A stretch of 64,000 bases of DNA, from NCBI GenBank assembly GCA_016342345.1, contig JAEINO010000004.1, positions 79,122-143,121 of the forward strand, read 5' to 3'. The position numbers were made by a program, and so were the translations under genes. The DNA is from Pseudodesulfovibrio sp. GTDB lineage: Bacteria > Desulfobacterota > Desulfovibrionia > Desulfovibrionales > Desulfovibrionaceae. Below are positions 57,620-64,000 of the stretch, one piece after another (within the stretch, counting starts at the first letter, position 1; each line of letters begins with the position of its first letter). The notes under the pieces are model-generated. The model searched no databases, was not told the origin of the DNA, and saw only the letters and a list, made by a program, of their open reading frames with translations.

Positions 57620-58048
57620 CTACCATCCCTTGCTGGCGAGGATATCCTTGACCTTGCTTTCGGATTTCTTTTCCACAAGCAGCATTTTCTTGGCCTGGGC
57701 CTTCTTGATCTTTTCGGTTAGGGAATCGATGTCAGCCGGCTTTTCCATGAAATCCATGGCGCCGAGTTTCATGGCTTCTATGCCCGCTTCCAGAGTGGCC
57801 TGGCCGGTCAGGAGGATGACCTGCAGATCAGGACGACGTGCCTTGATGGCCTTGAGCATTTCAATGCCATTCATGCCCGGCATTTGCAGGTCGAGCACGA
57901 TGGCGTCGTATTCTTCTTCTTCCACTGCGCTGACCGCATTTTCGGATGTCTGGGCCGTGTTGACCTCCATGCCTCTGACGCGCATTCTTTCAGACAGGTT
58001 CTCCAGGAATTCCGCTTCGTCGTCGATGAGCAATACTTTTTCAGTCAT
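57620..58048 (-). CDS. Stand-alone response regulator receiver
   Basis: KVLLIDDEAEFLENLSERM...IVLDLQMPGMNGIEML...LLTGQA...EKPADIDSL; no output domain. Confidence 0.92.
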   Translation of the reverse strand: MTEKVLLIDDEAEFLENLSERMRVRGMEVNTAQTSENAVSAVEEEEYDAIVLDLQMPGMNGIEMLKAIKARRPDLQVILLTGQATLEAGIEAMKLGAMDFMEKPADIDSLTEKIKKAQAKKMLLVEKKSESKVKDILASKGW

Positions 58049-58093: not shown

Positions 58094-58735
58094 CTACGCC
58101 GTTTTTTTGAGAAACAGCTCAAGAACCCCGTCCTTTTCATTGTTCGTTATTGTGGCGTTCATCTGCTTTGCCAGTTCAGCAAACGCAGTGTCGTTTTCCA
58201 ATGTTATTACCTGCCCGGAGGAGGATATTGTGAATGTCGCACCGTCTGTCGAAGGTCTGGCTGCCACGGTCAAGACACTGCCTTGAGTCATGGTATCCAG
58301 TGCTGCGGCGATCACGCCGTGCAGCAGTCGCATCAGGTCAAATGGGCATACCAGAGCCGTTGCCGGTTCGCATTTGCCCTGTTCAAGTCCTATCTGTTTC
58401 ATGTCGGCCATGCGTGTGGACAGGGCCACGGTCAGGCCGAGGGTTTCCTCCAGGTTCACTTCCTTGGCACCCTCGTCCATTGAATGGGCAAAGGCGTTCA
58501 TGTTCTTGATGATATCATCGCCGCGTCGGATTTGTCCCTGAATGGATTTGGCAACCCGTTTCAATCGTTCCGGCTCGATGGGCATGCCCTTTTCCGACAT
58601 GAGCGTGAGGTCTTCGACCAACCCGGCGGCTTCGTTGATCACGGCAAAGACGTTCTTGATTTCATGGGACGCCGAAGCATTGATCTTTCCGAAGAATTGC
58701 AGATCATCGCGGCTGTTGGATGTGGTTGGTGTCAT
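58094..58735 (-). CDS. Histidine-kinase-like protein: DHp-like segment with degenerate ATPase domain
   Basis: ASHEIKNVFAVINEAAGLVEDL H-box-like; expected Asn in N-box and DxGxG box not evident. Confidence 0.7.
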   Translation of the reverse strand: MTPTTSNSRDDLQFFGKINASASHEIKNVFAVINEAAGLVEDLTLMSEKGMPIEPERLKRVAKSIQGQIRRGDDIIKNMNAFAHSMDEGAKEVNLEETLGLTVALSTRMADMKQIGLEQGKCEPATALVCPFDLMRLLHGVIAAALDTMTQGSVLTVAARPSTDGATFTISSSGQVITLENDTAFAELAKQMNATITNNEKDGVLELFLKKTA

Positions 58736-58757: not shown

Positions 58758-59108
58758 TTATCGGGTCGCCTCTTCGATCTTGGAGATAAGGTCTTCTATT
58801 CGAATGGGCTTGATCAGATACGATTCGGCTTCTGCCGATCCTGCCTCGAAATCCGACACTGACCCGTGACCGGAAAGAAAGATGAATTTCATGGGCGGAC
58901 ATATGACCGAAAGCTGGCGTCGCAGTTCCAGACCGTTCAGCTTGGGCATTTTCATGTCGAGCACGGCAATGTCGTATTCGCATTGACGTGCCATGCCGAG
59001 GGCCTTTTCTCCGCTGTCGGTCCAGTCTGCATCAATTCCGCGCAGGGAAAGCCTTTCTGCCATGGCAGAGACAAGCTCCACCTCATCGTCAACCAGTAGT
59101 ATTTTCAT
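58758..59108 (-). CDS. Stand-alone response regulator receiver
   Basis: MKILLVDDEVELVSAMAERL...AVLDMKMPKLNGLEL...LSGHGS...IKPIRIEDL; start taken at 59108. Confidence 0.9.
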   Translation of the reverse strand: MKILLVDDEVELVSAMAERLSLRGIDADWTDSGEKALGMARQCEYDIAVLDMKMPKLNGLELRRQLSVICPPMKFIFLSGHGSVSDFEAGSAEAESYLIKPIRIEDLISKIEEATR

Positions 59109-60858
59109 TATCGTTAGCCTCTCTTGGCGTGGCATTCAGGGGCATGGTTATGGTAAAGGTCGTGCCTTTACCCACCTGACTATCGACGGTCATGGTTCCA
59201 CCCAGTTCCTGGATCAAACCGTATGTTATCGAGAGTCCGAGTCCTGTGCCACCAGTTTTTTTCTTTGTGGAGAAAAACGGATCAAAAATGCGTTTCTTGT
59301 CAGCTTCCGGGATGCCGCAGCCATCATCTTCCACAGCAAAGACAAGGGTTTTATCAGTTTTTTTGTGGGCGGAAATGGAAAGCTTGCCCCCGTCGTTCAT
59401 GGCCTGGAATGCATTGTTGACCAGATTGAGGAAAATCTGCTGCAATTTGCCACGATCGGATACGAATTTCGGAAGGTCTTCCGGAATATCCATCTTGATG
59501 ACAATGCTACGGTACTCGGCTTCTTTTTGCAGGAATCCGATGACTTCCTCAGCCAGATTCTTGAAGCGGATGCTCTCTTCGCGAACGTCAATATGGCGCG
59601 CAAAGCTCAGGAGTCGCTTGGTGATTTTTCCGCATCTTTCCACTGAAGCGATGATCGAATTGATGTTTGCCTGCAACCGTCGATCATGGGCATATTCTTT
59701 CTTGTAGTAGAAGAGGTCGTTTATGAGTCCGGCTTTTTCGTTGATGATGGCCAGTGGGTTGTTGATTTCATGTGCCACGCCAGCTGCCAGCCGTCCGATG
59801 GAGGCCATGCGGTTGGTGTGTTCCATCTGATGCAGGGTTCGCGCCCTGATCTGGTCTGCGATGTAGATCTTGTCAACCATGTAGGTTGCCACGCCTACAA
59901 TGACCACGAGGATGAGGGCGATGCTAATGGCCAGCATCCAGAAAAGCTCGATCCTGATGGTTTCCCACGGCTTCATGAGTACCCTGTTCTTCTTGATCAC
60001 CAGAACGATGAACGGGGAATCGTGGATGTAGGCATAGCCCACGGTGTAATCAACGTTGTTCTTGCCGGTTAACTGTTGAACGCTCGTCTTTTCCGAATAT
60101 CCCGGTATGGGCAGATCGACTTCGGACAGGAGTTTGCCATGCCATTTGGAAGGCGTCTGAAGGATGCCCTTGCGATCCACGACAAATGCTTCACCTTCGT
60201 TTGGCAGATCAAGGGAAGACAGGATTGTGTTGAACTGTCCGGTGTCCAGGGTGGCCCGAAGCACGTAGTTCATGCCGGTCTTCTTGTCTGTTACTCTCTG
60301 GGCAATGATCAGGTGCGGTTCTCCGCGAAATCCGAGAAATACGCCACTGGTGTATGATCCCAGTTCCAGGGTTTTCCTGAACCATTCCTGTTCGCTGTAG
60401 TTGCGTCCGAGCAATTCGTATGGGCCAATGTAGGCAACCTGTTGCCCCTGCCCGTCGATGAGCCCTATATCCACGAAGCCGCCAAAGCTATTCTTCATGG
60501 AATCCAGGATGGAGGTGAGGTTTTTCGGGTTGCTCAGGCTTTTGACACCCAAATAATTAACCAGGAAGTTTAAGGCATTGTCGCGTTCGTTCAGGAAGGA
60601 GGCGATGGTCCTGCGGGTATTGGATGTGGTTCTCGCCGTGCGCAGGAGACTATCCGATTCAATGGAATTCCGGGTGACGTTGTAGTCGATGAAAGTCATG
60701 ATCAACAGTGGGACAAGGGCGACCACAGCCAGTAGCATTATGGCCAATCGCCAGGTACGCCTGTAGTTGAACAGGCTCTTTGGACCTGTGCTGGTGTCTG
60801 TGTCCCAGAACTGTGGTTTGACTTTGTTTAATATCGACATGACGTCACCCGGTTTCAT
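59089..60858 (-). CDS. Sensor histidine kinase with periplasmic Cache-like sensor
   Basis: TM-periplasmic-TM N-terminus, HEINNPLAIINEKAGLI, LNLVNNAFQAM, EDDGCGIPEADKKRIFDPFFSTKKKTGGTGLGLSI. Confidence 0.92.
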   Translation of the reverse strand: MKPGDVMSILNKVKPQFWDTDTSTGPKSLFNYRRTWRLAIMLLAVVALVPLLIMTFIDYNVTRNSIESDSLLRTARTTSNTRRTIASFLNERDNALNFLVNYLGVKSLSNPKNLTSILDSMKNSFGGFVDIGLIDGQGQQVAYIGPYELLGRNYSEQEWFRKTLELGSYTSGVFLGFRGEPHLIIAQRVTDKKTGMNYVLRATLDTGQFNTILSSLDLPNEGEAFVVDRKGILQTPSKWHGKLLSEVDLPIPGYSEKTSVQQLTGKNNVDYTVGYAYIHDSPFIVLVIKKNRVLMKPWETIRIELFWMLAISIALILVVIVGVATYMVDKIYIADQIRARTLHQMEHTNRMASIGRLAAGVAHEINNPLAIINEKAGLINDLFYYKKEYAHDRRLQANINSIIASVERCGKITKRLLSFARHIDVREESIRFKNLAEEVIGFLQKEAEYRSIVIKMDIPEDLPKFVSDRGKLQQIFLNLVNNAFQAMNDGGKLSISAHKKTDKTLVFAVEDDGCGIPEADKKRIFDPFFSTKKKTGGTGLGLSITYGLIQELGGTMTVDSQVGKGTTFTITMPLNATPREANDNENTTG

Positions 60859-60861
60859 GAT

Positions 60862-62079
60862 TTATTTGGCGGCCTGGATTTTATCGTTTGCAGCCTTGAG
60901 CGTCTTGCTCAGGACGTCTATGTCCACTGGCTTGTGCAAGTAGGCAAAGGCTCCGAGTCCCATGCAGACCTCGCGGTCTTTTTCCGAGCCGTGTCCGGTA
61001 AGGATGATGACTTCGATGTTCGGGTGTTCGCTCTTGACGCGGCGCAGAACTTCGATGCCGTCAATGCCGGGCATCTTGAGGTCGAGGATCATGACTTCAG
61101 GCTCGTCTTCTTCCACCAGTCCCAGTGCGGATTCCCCATCGTAGACCACGGCGGAACCCATGTCGCGCATCATCAACCGTTCGGACAGGGTCTGGACAAA
61201 CTCGCGTTCGTCATCGACCAGTAACACCTTGGATGGGATTTCAAAGTCCACCCTGCGGTAGATGTCCGTCTGATGGTATCCCTTGCCCACGCCTGTGCTG
61301 ACGGTATTTACGCCGTCTATCCCGGAAACGATGTCGGTCAGATCCCGTTCCAGCTTTTCCAGCATGAGTACGTGTTTGTTGATGGTCAGAGTGACCGCAC
61401 CATTCTTGGCCGAGACCACGACGTTGTGACCTTCGGTAGCCAGGACGGTTTCGACCTTGGCAGCCAGCAGGAAGTCTTCGACTGCGGCGCGGGAAGCGTC
61501 GGAGTTCTGGATGGCGACATTGGCGAGTTGTTCCACTATGAGATCGGCACTTTTTTCAACGCCGGTGGAACCCACGGGTACGATGATGTCGTAGAGTCTC
61601 TTTGCCCAGGGGTCATCGGAACTCTTGAGGGTCTTTACCCAGGCAATTCTGTCCTCGTCATCCTTGTGGATGAGTTTGAGGGCATGTTTTTCCGCATATC
61701 CTTCTTCGCGTTCGGCAACGCCAAGACGTTCTTTCATTTCCGAGATGAGGCAGACTTTGAGTATGTGTGCGATTTCCGGTGCGGGAAGCTGGGAAACGAA
61801 GCCGGAGAAGAGCAGATTGTCTCCGTCCTTGAGCTTGTTGGCCATGGCCAGACGCATCCAGGCGATGGCTTGTTCCTTTTCCCGGCTGAAGGTGTTGAAT
61901 ACGGATGCCTTGGCCTGGAAAGCTCGTGCAATCTTGCCCTCGGCCATGCCGGAGAGCTTTGCTGCATCGGCGACGATTTCCTGGTCCGAGACCAGACGAT
62001 ATCCGGCGGAGTCGAGGACTCTTTTTACCACGACTCCGGCTTCACAAAATAAACCGTTGAATACTGTTATGACGGACAT
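60862..62079 (-). CDS. Cytidylate-kinase-like / BON-like / receiver fusion protein
   Basis: N-term resembles cytidylate kinase-like family (GYRLVSDQEIV...RLYDIIVPVGSTGVEKSADLIVEQL), middle BON-like segment, C-term REC (KVLLVDDEREFVQTLSERL...ILDLKMPGIDGIEVL). Confidence 0.75.
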   Translation of the reverse strand: MSVITVFNGLFCEAGVVVKRVLDSAGYRLVSDQEIVADAAKLSGMAEGKIARAFQAKASVFNTFSREKEQAIAWMRLAMANKLKDGDNLLFSGFVSQLPAPEIAHILKVCLISEMKERLGVAEREEGYAEKHALKLIHKDDEDRIAWVKTLKSSDDPWAKRLYDIIVPVGSTGVEKSADLIVEQLANVAIQNSDASRAAVEDFLLAAKVETVLATEGHNVVVSAKNGAVTLTINKHVLMLEKLERDLTDIVSGIDGVNTVSTGVGKGYHQTDIYRRVDFEIPSKVLLVDDEREFVQTLSERLMMRDMGSAVVYDGESALGLVEEDEPEVMILDLKMPGIDGIEVLRRVKSEHPNIEVIILTGHGSEKDREVCMGLGAFAYLHKPVDIDVLSKTLKAANDKIQAAK

Positions 62080-62104: not shown

Positions 62105-64000
62105 TTAGGCGAGATGGCAGGCTGTGGTCAGCGGACAGGTCTCTTCGTCGCCTTCCGTGTGTGCGCGAGCGTGAACATCGCAGATGGCGGCTTCCATGGT
62201 CGAATAGAGATGGTCTTCGCCGATCTTTTCCAGCAGATGCGTACGTTTGAATACAGCCATGACTGATTCGTTCACACCTGACAGCGATATGTCAAGTCCT
62301 GCGCTCCGAATACGGTCCACGAGCAGGGACAGCGCTTCCTCGCCCGAGGCATCCATGTCGTTAATGCCGTTGGCAACCAGGAGGATGTGCCTGAGCTTTT
62401 TGTTGCCTGCCATTTTGTCGGAGATCTTGTCTTCCAGGAAGCTGGCATTGGCGAAGAACAGAGGGCCGTCGAAGCGGACCACGGCAATGTGGCTGCACTC
62501 GGCAAGGCCGAATTCTTCGGAACAACGAAGGGATTCGTCTGAATGACGGGACAGGGTTGCCACGCGTGGACGCATGCTCTTGTACAGGAATACTGCCAGA
62601 GACAGGGTCACGCCAACCATGATGCCCTTGTCCAGATGCGGGGCAAAAGCCAGAGTGCAGAGAAACGAGATGATGGAGATGGCTCCGTCATACCACTGGG
62701 CTTTCCAGGCGTGCATGAAACCGGAAGCGTTGATCAGACCGATGACTGCCATCATGATGACTGCTGCCAGAACAGCCTGGGGCAGGTTGTAGAGCAACGG
62801 GGTGAAGAACAGAAGCACGATAACGACCATGAGCGAAGTTATCACGCTTGAGAAACCTGAGACTGCACCCGCCTGGAGGTTGACCGCCGATCGGGAGAAC
62901 GAGCCGGATGCCGGGTAGCTCTTTCCGCATGCGCCGAGAATGTTTGCGAGACCCTGTCCGATGAGTTCCTGGTTGGGGTCCAGTCTCTGGCCGGTTTTGG
63001 CTGCCATGGCCTTGGCAATGGAGATGGCCTCCATGAAGCCCAAAAGCGAGATGATGGCTGCGAACGGAAGCAGGTGCAGCATGGTCTTGATGTCGAGTGT
63101 CGGAATGGAGATGGTCGGGATGCCTGAGGGGACCGAGCCAACGACTGCGCCGCCGCCCATCATTTTCAGGCTGGTGGTGTTCAGGGTATTGTTACCCACC
63201 TTGATCCGCCATGTGCGGCCATCGGTTTCCATTCCTGCCGGGACTGTGTCCTGACGATAGAAAGTAATGTTGCCATCAGAGGCTTCGACACCGCTGAACA
63301 GGACATTGCGTATGCCTGCGCGCAGGAGATGCGCCTCATGCTTGAGGCGGGATATGCGGGTGTTGATGACGTTCAGATCATGCTCGATGTCAAACATGGT
63401 TATGACGTCGTGAGCTGTTTTGGCCTTGTCCATATCCGTGCCGTAAGCAGTGCGCTCCTGGCCCAGTTTTTCGATTTCGGTCAGAACAGTATTGAATTTG
63501 GCAACAGATTCAACGATTTCGGGAGCCTGGATGGCATCAACAGGAGCGTTGGTGTCATGGTTGAAGCCGAGGCCCCAGGACAGGGCTGTGGTGACTGCGA
63601 CCGCCACCAGAACGTTGGGGATTTTCGGGTTGATGCGTTTGAGAATGATCATGATGGCAAAGGCCAGCACCCCCATGGCCAATGAAGGCAGGTGGGTGTA
63701 GTGGAGGGCACTTTCAACCACACGGATGATGGTTTCGTAGTGGTGTTCCGCCTTGTCCACGTATACCCCGAACATCTTGGAGAGCTGGGACGAGGCAATG
63801 ATGATGGCTGCTGCGTTGGTGAATCCGTTGACCACCGGGTGGGACAGGAAGTTCACCACCAGGCCGAGTCGGAGCACGCCGAGCAGGAACTGGAACATAC
63901 CGACCATCAGGGCCAGAAGAATAGCGTATGCAATGTATCCCTCGCTGCCAGCCGTTGCCAGCGGTTCAAGGGATGCCGCAGTCATGAGCGAGACAACGGC
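62105..64000 (-). CDS. SulP family anion permease with C-terminal STAS domain (5' end outside or at window edge)
   Basis: NFLSHPVVNGFTNAAAIIIASSQLSKMFG...PASGSFSRSAVNLQAGAVSG..., STAS HIAVVRFDGPLFFANASFLEDKI...NDMDASGEEAL. Confidence 0.93.
   Translation of the reverse strand, partial: AVVSLMTAASLEPLATAGSEGYIAYAILLALMVGMFQFLLGVLRLGLVVNFLSHPVVNGFTNAAAIIIASSQLSKMFGVYVDKAEHHYETIIRVVESALHYTHLPSLAMGVLAFAIMIILKRINPKIPNVLVAVAVTTALSWGLGFNHDTNAPVDAIQAPEIVESVAKFNTVLTEIEKLGQERTAYGTDMDKAKTAHDVITMFDIEHDLNVINTRISRLKHEAHLLRAGIRNVLFSGVEASDGNITFYRQDTVPAGMETDGRTWRIKVGNNTLNTTSLKMMGGGAVVGSVPSGIPTISIPTLDIKTMLHLLPFAAIISLLGFMEAISIAKAMAAKTGQRLDPNQELIGQGLANILGACGKSYPASGSFSRSAVNLQAGAVSGFSSVITSLMVVIVLLFFTPLLYNLPQAVLAAVIMMAVIGLINASGFMHAWKAQWYDGAISIISFLCTLAFAPHLDKGIMVGVTLSLAVFLYKSMRPRVATLSRHSDESLRCSEEFGLAECSHIAVVRFDGPLFFANASFLEDKISDKMAGNKKLRHILLVANGINDMDASGEEALSLLVDRIRSAGLDISLSGVNESVMAVFKRTHLLEKIGEDHLYSTMEAAICDVHARAHTEGDEETCPLTTACHLA

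Follow-up and report, generated by a model that had tools for sequence, protein, structure and literature searches.

What might a protein do that joins a domain of the cytidylate kinase-like (CK2) family to a response-regulator receiver (REC) and is encoded directly beside a SulP anion transporter? The question is raised by a 405-aa protein encoded near one end of the window, the 64,000-nucleotide stretch of Pseudodesulfovibrio DNA analysed here. A sequence-only reading had proposed for it a cytidylate kinase-like N-terminus without P-loop, a BON-like middle segment and a canonical receiver, and had regarded the whole as an unusual architecture in which a kinase fold was turned into a phospho-regulated sensor or adaptor. 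The features of the protein are as follows:

60862..62079, minus strand: CK2 (pseudokinase)-BON-REC protein, 405 aa (open reading frame, Pfam, AlphaFold, Foldseek)
61510..62079, minus strand: nucleoside-monophosphate (NMP)-kinase-like (Cytidylate_kin2) domain, residues 1-190 (Pfam, AlphaFold, Foldseek)
62032..62061, minus strand: position of the lost P-loop, residues 7-16, FNGLFCEAGV (aligned columns)
61288..61500, minus strand: BON-like domain, residues 194-264, alpha-beta-beta-alpha-beta (AlphaFold, weak profile matches)
60880..61230, minus strand: receiver domain, residues 284-400 (Pfam, alignment)
61081-61083, minus strand: receiver phospho-acceptor D333 (alignment)

The first ~190 residues are indeed cytidylate kinase-like. 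Pfam placed Cytidylate_kin2 (PF13189) at residues 3-167 (E 4e-13, 50.3 bits versus a cut-off of 28) and matched the same family in 35 of 35 relatives of one alignment. The AlphaFold model of residues 1-282, computed from an alignment of 81 natural relatives (pLDDT 89, pTM 0.85), showed a kinase-like alpha/beta domain up to residue ~190 and then, at 194-264, the helix-strand-strand-helix-strand order of BON domains; the structural check proposed earlier did not, therefore, return an unrelated fold for the N-terminus. The top PDB match of this model in Foldseek was the CK2 structure 3hdt (E 8e-8, TM by target 0.79), followed by 3fdi (also CK2) and then by CMP kinases and other nucleoside-monophosphate-kinase-like folds. 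A PDB sequence search with the single 405-aa sequence gave matches confined to the receiver.

Residues 194-264 are likely, but not proven, to form a BON domain, since the assignment is based on the order of the predicted elements, weak Pfam matches and a marginal profile match to Escherichia coli DolP/YraP (E 0.77). The 405-aa protein alone had no Pfam match to PF04972 (BON); the family was matched weakly in 11 of 35 relatives (best E 0.007) and in a double-BON paralogue (E 0.0004), in all cases below its cut-off. The proposal of a BON-like segment thus agrees with the predicted structure and with these relatives, but not with the Pfam threshold. The receiver is as canonical as had been described: Response_reg covers residues 285-394 (E 2e-27), the acidic pocket, phospho-acceptor D, T/S and K are all present, and the phospho-acceptor aspartate occurs in 153 of the 153 rows reaching its position (154 were aligned), the lysine in 151.

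It is clear from aligned columns that the CK2 domain has lost its P-loop. At this position the protein reads FNGLFCEAGVV, and a GxxxxG[KR] pattern was found in 0 of 113 REC-fused rows (this set and the 153-row set come from two collections and possibly contain a few loci twice) versus 25 of 26 REC-less relatives, a count that includes locus L057 (SRGTYSKGK) in the second REC-less group and becomes 26 of 27 if L057 is placed in the first, as in the tree. REC-less relatives from the same phylum carry SRGSYS[KR]GK at the loop, whereas REC-fused members mostly carry F[SN]Gx[FY]C and, after it, acidic residues. R8 is retained by none of the latter and G14 by 4%, and the basic residue at position 15 is gone; 73 of 113 rows have E or D in its place. 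In its changed form the loop has been conserved (F7 in 102 and C12 in 100 of 113 rows), which indicates that the loss is not random decay; a sequencing error or recent decay was likewise rejected, as the changed loop is common to the clade and the frames are open. The loss claimed by the sequence-only reading therefore stands, although not on the grounds given for it, namely the absence of GxxxxGK[ST]. That absence alone is not diagnostic because 3hdt reads REYGSGGR and REC-less relatives SRGSYSKGKE, and we rejected it as proof of inactivity since CK2 relatives also lack the exact pattern.

Part of the old site nevertheless remains, as shown by the conservation of columns shared with REC-less relatives (R118 99%, D141 94%, W147 97%, Y163 94%, D164 100%). 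Together with the conserved F7 and C12, these residues would suit a domain that is still an enzyme, with a non-standard phosphate-binding loop, a nucleotide-like substrate and the receiver as its switch. We consider this improbable, given the loss of R8, G14 and the basic residue 15 and the fate of the DDERRKW stretch, whose second arginine is kept in 3% of REC-fused members and the first in only about half. The genome also has a normal CMP kinase elsewhere, for which reason we rejected the 405-aa protein as the CMP kinase of the cell. The best inference is that CK2-BON-REC is a phospho-regulated sensor or adaptor and not an enzyme. In the family tree, one branch with support 100/100 splits all REC-fused from all REC-less members; subject to the rooting, the tree is consistent with a single origin of the receiver fusion together with P-loop loss. 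REC-fused CK2 relatives are spread across Desulfobacterota, and a scan of viral contigs revealed no relative.

The protein is not an isolated oddity, as had been supposed, but belongs to a conserved family encoded within a six-gene transporter and phosphorelay block, with other copies near anion transporters. In the window, the block runs in the order SulP-STAS, CK2-BON-REC, dCache histidine kinase, REC, DHp protein and REC, all on the same strand, neighbours overlapping or standing apart by no more than 47 bases, and the pseudokinase gene being the second. The other five members are:

62105..64000, minus strand: SulP/STAS anion transporter, truncated at its 5' end by the window and contig end, with ~130-150 aa inserted between membrane segments
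59089..60858, minus strand: dCache sensor histidine kinase, H-box and ATPase intact (Pfam, motif counts)
58758..59135, minus strand: first stand-alone receiver (open reading frame, Pfam)
58094..58735, minus strand: DHp (HisKA) protein, 213 aa, H-box kept, ATPase-like domain degenerate (Pfam, model, motif counts)
57620..58048, minus strand: second stand-alone receiver, closing the conserved block (open reading frame, Pfam, neighbourhood)

The model of the DHp protein resembles the DHp-CA pairs of histidine kinases. Its homologues keep the H-box in 46 of 46 sequences and the ATP-binding boxes G1 and G2 in 2 of 46 each, versus 72 of 73 (G1) and 73 of 73 (G2) in the dCache kinases. A DHp domain with the conserved histidine and without ATP-binding boxes is the make-up of Spo0B/ChpT-type phosphotransferases, which makes the 58094-58735 product a candidate Spo0B/ChpT-like phosphotransferase and lets the block be read as a putative phosphorelay. 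None of the six block genes encodes a DNA-binding domain that Pfam recognises. The SulP proteins of these operons carry Sulfate_transp and STAS domains and measure ~710 aa (708-764 aa in the frames of L089-L168) with the conserved ~130-150 aa insert, which is absent from 560-aa SulP paralogues; of 19 examined, 6 have the exact PXYGLY motif. In Salidesulfovibrio brasiliensis, two overlapping frames make up SulP, owing to a frameshift or to an error in the assembly (L034:6710-8844 and L112:2200-4300, both on one contig).

This arrangement is widely conserved. A scan of 85,462 species genomes yielded 208 relatives, of which we kept 80, belonging to Desulfobacterota as far as their titles tell. 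SulP lies directly upstream of the pseudokinase in 78 of the 80 loci, the other two being truncated; the dCache kinase lies directly downstream in 67 of 69 loci with enough sequence, and kinase, REC, DHp protein and REC follow in exact order in 50 of 59. Within the genus, 32 of 36 genomes contain both SulP and pseudokinase and the other 4 neither. Among 198 genomes of the phylum, the pseudokinase was found in 22 of 22 with the block-type SulP versus 2 of 176 without it (Fisher p 3e-27, a value that overstates the association because the genomes are related), and the co-occurrence involves more than 10 families. Three genomes from one genus of the order (G047, G051 and G059) encode a SulP 62% identical to that of the window and no pseudokinase, so that this transporter can work without the pseudokinase. 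In the same 198 genomes, dsrA scored above the cut-off in 21 of 24 with the pseudokinase versus 79 of 174 without (p 1e-4); the three pseudokinase genomes without it are assemblies of hundreds of contigs, two of them <70% complete.

Our main reading, to which we give a probability of roughly one half, is that the pseudokinase is the output of a phosphorelay that adjusts SulP uptake, most likely of sulfate, in sulfate reducers at the protein level. The dCache histidine kinase would sense a signal outside the cell and phosphorylate a receiver, the DHp protein without working ATPase would hand the phosphate onward, and the receiver of the pseudokinase would be one end point of this flow, whose direction we infer. 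Its phosphorylation would alter the binding of CK2-BON to a partner, most likely the cytoplasmic STAS domain of the adjacent SulP, so that uptake rises or falls. STAS has been proposed as a place where other proteins exert control (PMC5840216). The CK2 part, its site for ATP phosphates lost, would act as a binding or sensing domain; that its remaining site senses a nucleotide is a speculation prompted by the fold. As DolP binds anionic phospholipids through a BON domain (PMC7806268), the BON-like part may aid docking to the membrane, or else to the transporter. Sulfate is the presumed substrate from the family, the length class and the hosts of this SulP. Genes that lie together point to a common process, not to contact between their products, and the transporter itself is suggested as the probable target by two other kinds of loci, SulP-REC fusions and paralogues paired with only SulP.

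In four genomes, a SulP has its own C-terminal receiver, 58-63% identical to that of the pseudokinase (with a Pfam match in two), and adjoins or lies near the pseudokinase. These SulP-STAS-REC fusions, of 853-871 aa where complete, are:

L190, 4168-6771
L191, 4043-6655
L192, 7755-10313
L199, 2405-4840

Furthermore, Pseudodesulfovibrio has ~500-aa paralogues with a CK-BON-BON-REC architecture (L043, L045-L051), which at six loci stand beside a different, shorter SulP without relay genes; the remaining ones adjoin TPR, AzlC or chemoreceptor genes. Other REC-fused relatives adjoin CitMHS/TrkA_C transporters (L038/L039, L041, L042, L044) or, in one genome, Na_sulph_symp transporters (L193, L194). 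At L170, L173, L174, L181 and L188, tandem REC-less CK2 proteins are accompanied by REC, kinase and CitMHS/TrkA_C transporters. Viewed as a whole, these loci link the CK2-BON module to anion transporters and two-component proteins. In the REC-less tandem pairs (those five loci and L184), one copy reads SRGSYSKGK and the loop of the other is degraded; REC and a histidine kinase come next. Some CK2 proteins, REC-fused or REC-less, adjoin not a transporter but a PPDK_N/PEP-utilizer protein of ~880 aa:

L038, 3202-5865
L040, 6564-9194
L178, 3976-6633

These loci bear on two other explanations of the linkage. Receivers without output domains often serve as phosphate sinks, and the receiver of the 405-aa protein might mainly be a sink or relay step, with CK2-BON as a mere anchor and the stand-alone receivers as the real outputs; two further receivers do end or interrupt the block. 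We find this unlikely, as CK2-BON is itself conserved (16 invariant columns across 81 relatives) and occurs, in the paralogues above, beside SulP where relay genes are absent. Alternatively, the relay might be tied to sulfate uptake while the target of the pseudokinase lies elsewhere, for instance a transcription factor or an enzyme that activates sulfate or serves energy metabolism, the SulP linkage then reflecting a shared pathway. TetR genes adjoin SulP in some loci, sigma-54 activators lie near some divergent copies, some relatives sit beside the PPDK-like genes, and a 2025 paper (PMC11887813) proposes transcriptional control of sulP. The SulP-REC fusions and SulP-only paralogue pairs point instead to the transporter, and proteomics cited in that paper describes SulP as constitutively formed, so that we regard a target elsewhere as doubtful, though worth keeping in mind. 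We thus retain control of SulP by the pseudokinase as the preferred explanation.

Sulfate respiration begins with sulfate uptake, and it is known from physiology that sulfate reducers regulate this uptake in both its high- and low-affinity forms (summary in PMC5840216); we found no description of its molecular switch in the literature. The block offers a putative sensor, relay and effector, in several Desulfobacterota orders and almost one-to-one with one SulP type. The existence of SulP-REC fusions suggests that phosphorylation may control a transporter itself. The gene cluster is partly known already. The main text of PMC11887813 describes Desulfobacteraceae clusters in which SulP is accompanied by two-component genes, cache kinases and TetR; it speaks of WalR-type regulators and proposes that external sulfate is sensed and transcription adjusted. 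SulP, a cache-type kinase, response regulators and a nearby TetR are common to those clusters and ours, which are probably the same; that main text is silent on cytidylate kinase, BON, receiver and phosphorelay. PMC5840216 (Marietou et al.) analysed the distance of SulP to sulfate-reduction genes and described, within a putative sulfate-transporter clade, a group Ci of ~710-aa SulP with an insertion, in which we would place the operon SulP by length and insert only. The searchable literature, outside which most subscription journals lie, yielded no cytidylate kinase linked to a response regulator, receiver domain or sulfate permease, and the pseudokinase, the relay and their tight linkage to SulP appear undescribed there.

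As for the parts of the protein, it shares with the cytidylate kinase-like family (PF13189; 3hdt, 3fdi) the fold, Pfam membership and best Foldseek matches, but differs in the lost P-loop columns and in its fusion to BON-like and receiver domains. E. coli DolP/YraP (PMC7806268) has the same alpha-beta-beta-alpha-beta order and a weak profile similarity, which lies below the Pfam cut-off, whereas the pseudokinase is predicted to be a cytoplasmic fusion (no signal sequence was seen). GlnK-AmtB offers a parallel in the way of working only, a small soluble regulator (PII) encoded beside a transporter; the pseudokinase fold is unrelated. Much as PII proteins gate ammonium channels, the pseudokinase could represent a new class of regulators that bind SulP (or, for relatives, DASS/CitMHS transporters) directly and gate respiratory sulfate uptake by combining the phosphorelay with sensing of a nucleotide such as AMP or adenosine phosphosulfate, an extension that we hold to be rather unlikely as a whole. 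The closest likeness of the block is to the Spo0 and CckA-ChpT phosphorelays, with their kinase, receiver, DHp phosphotransferase with degenerate ATPase and final receiver. In contrast to those systems, the receiver effector of this putative relay bears a pseudokinase instead of a DNA-binding domain; a nucleotide-kinase fold without P-loop would add an output type to those of response regulators.
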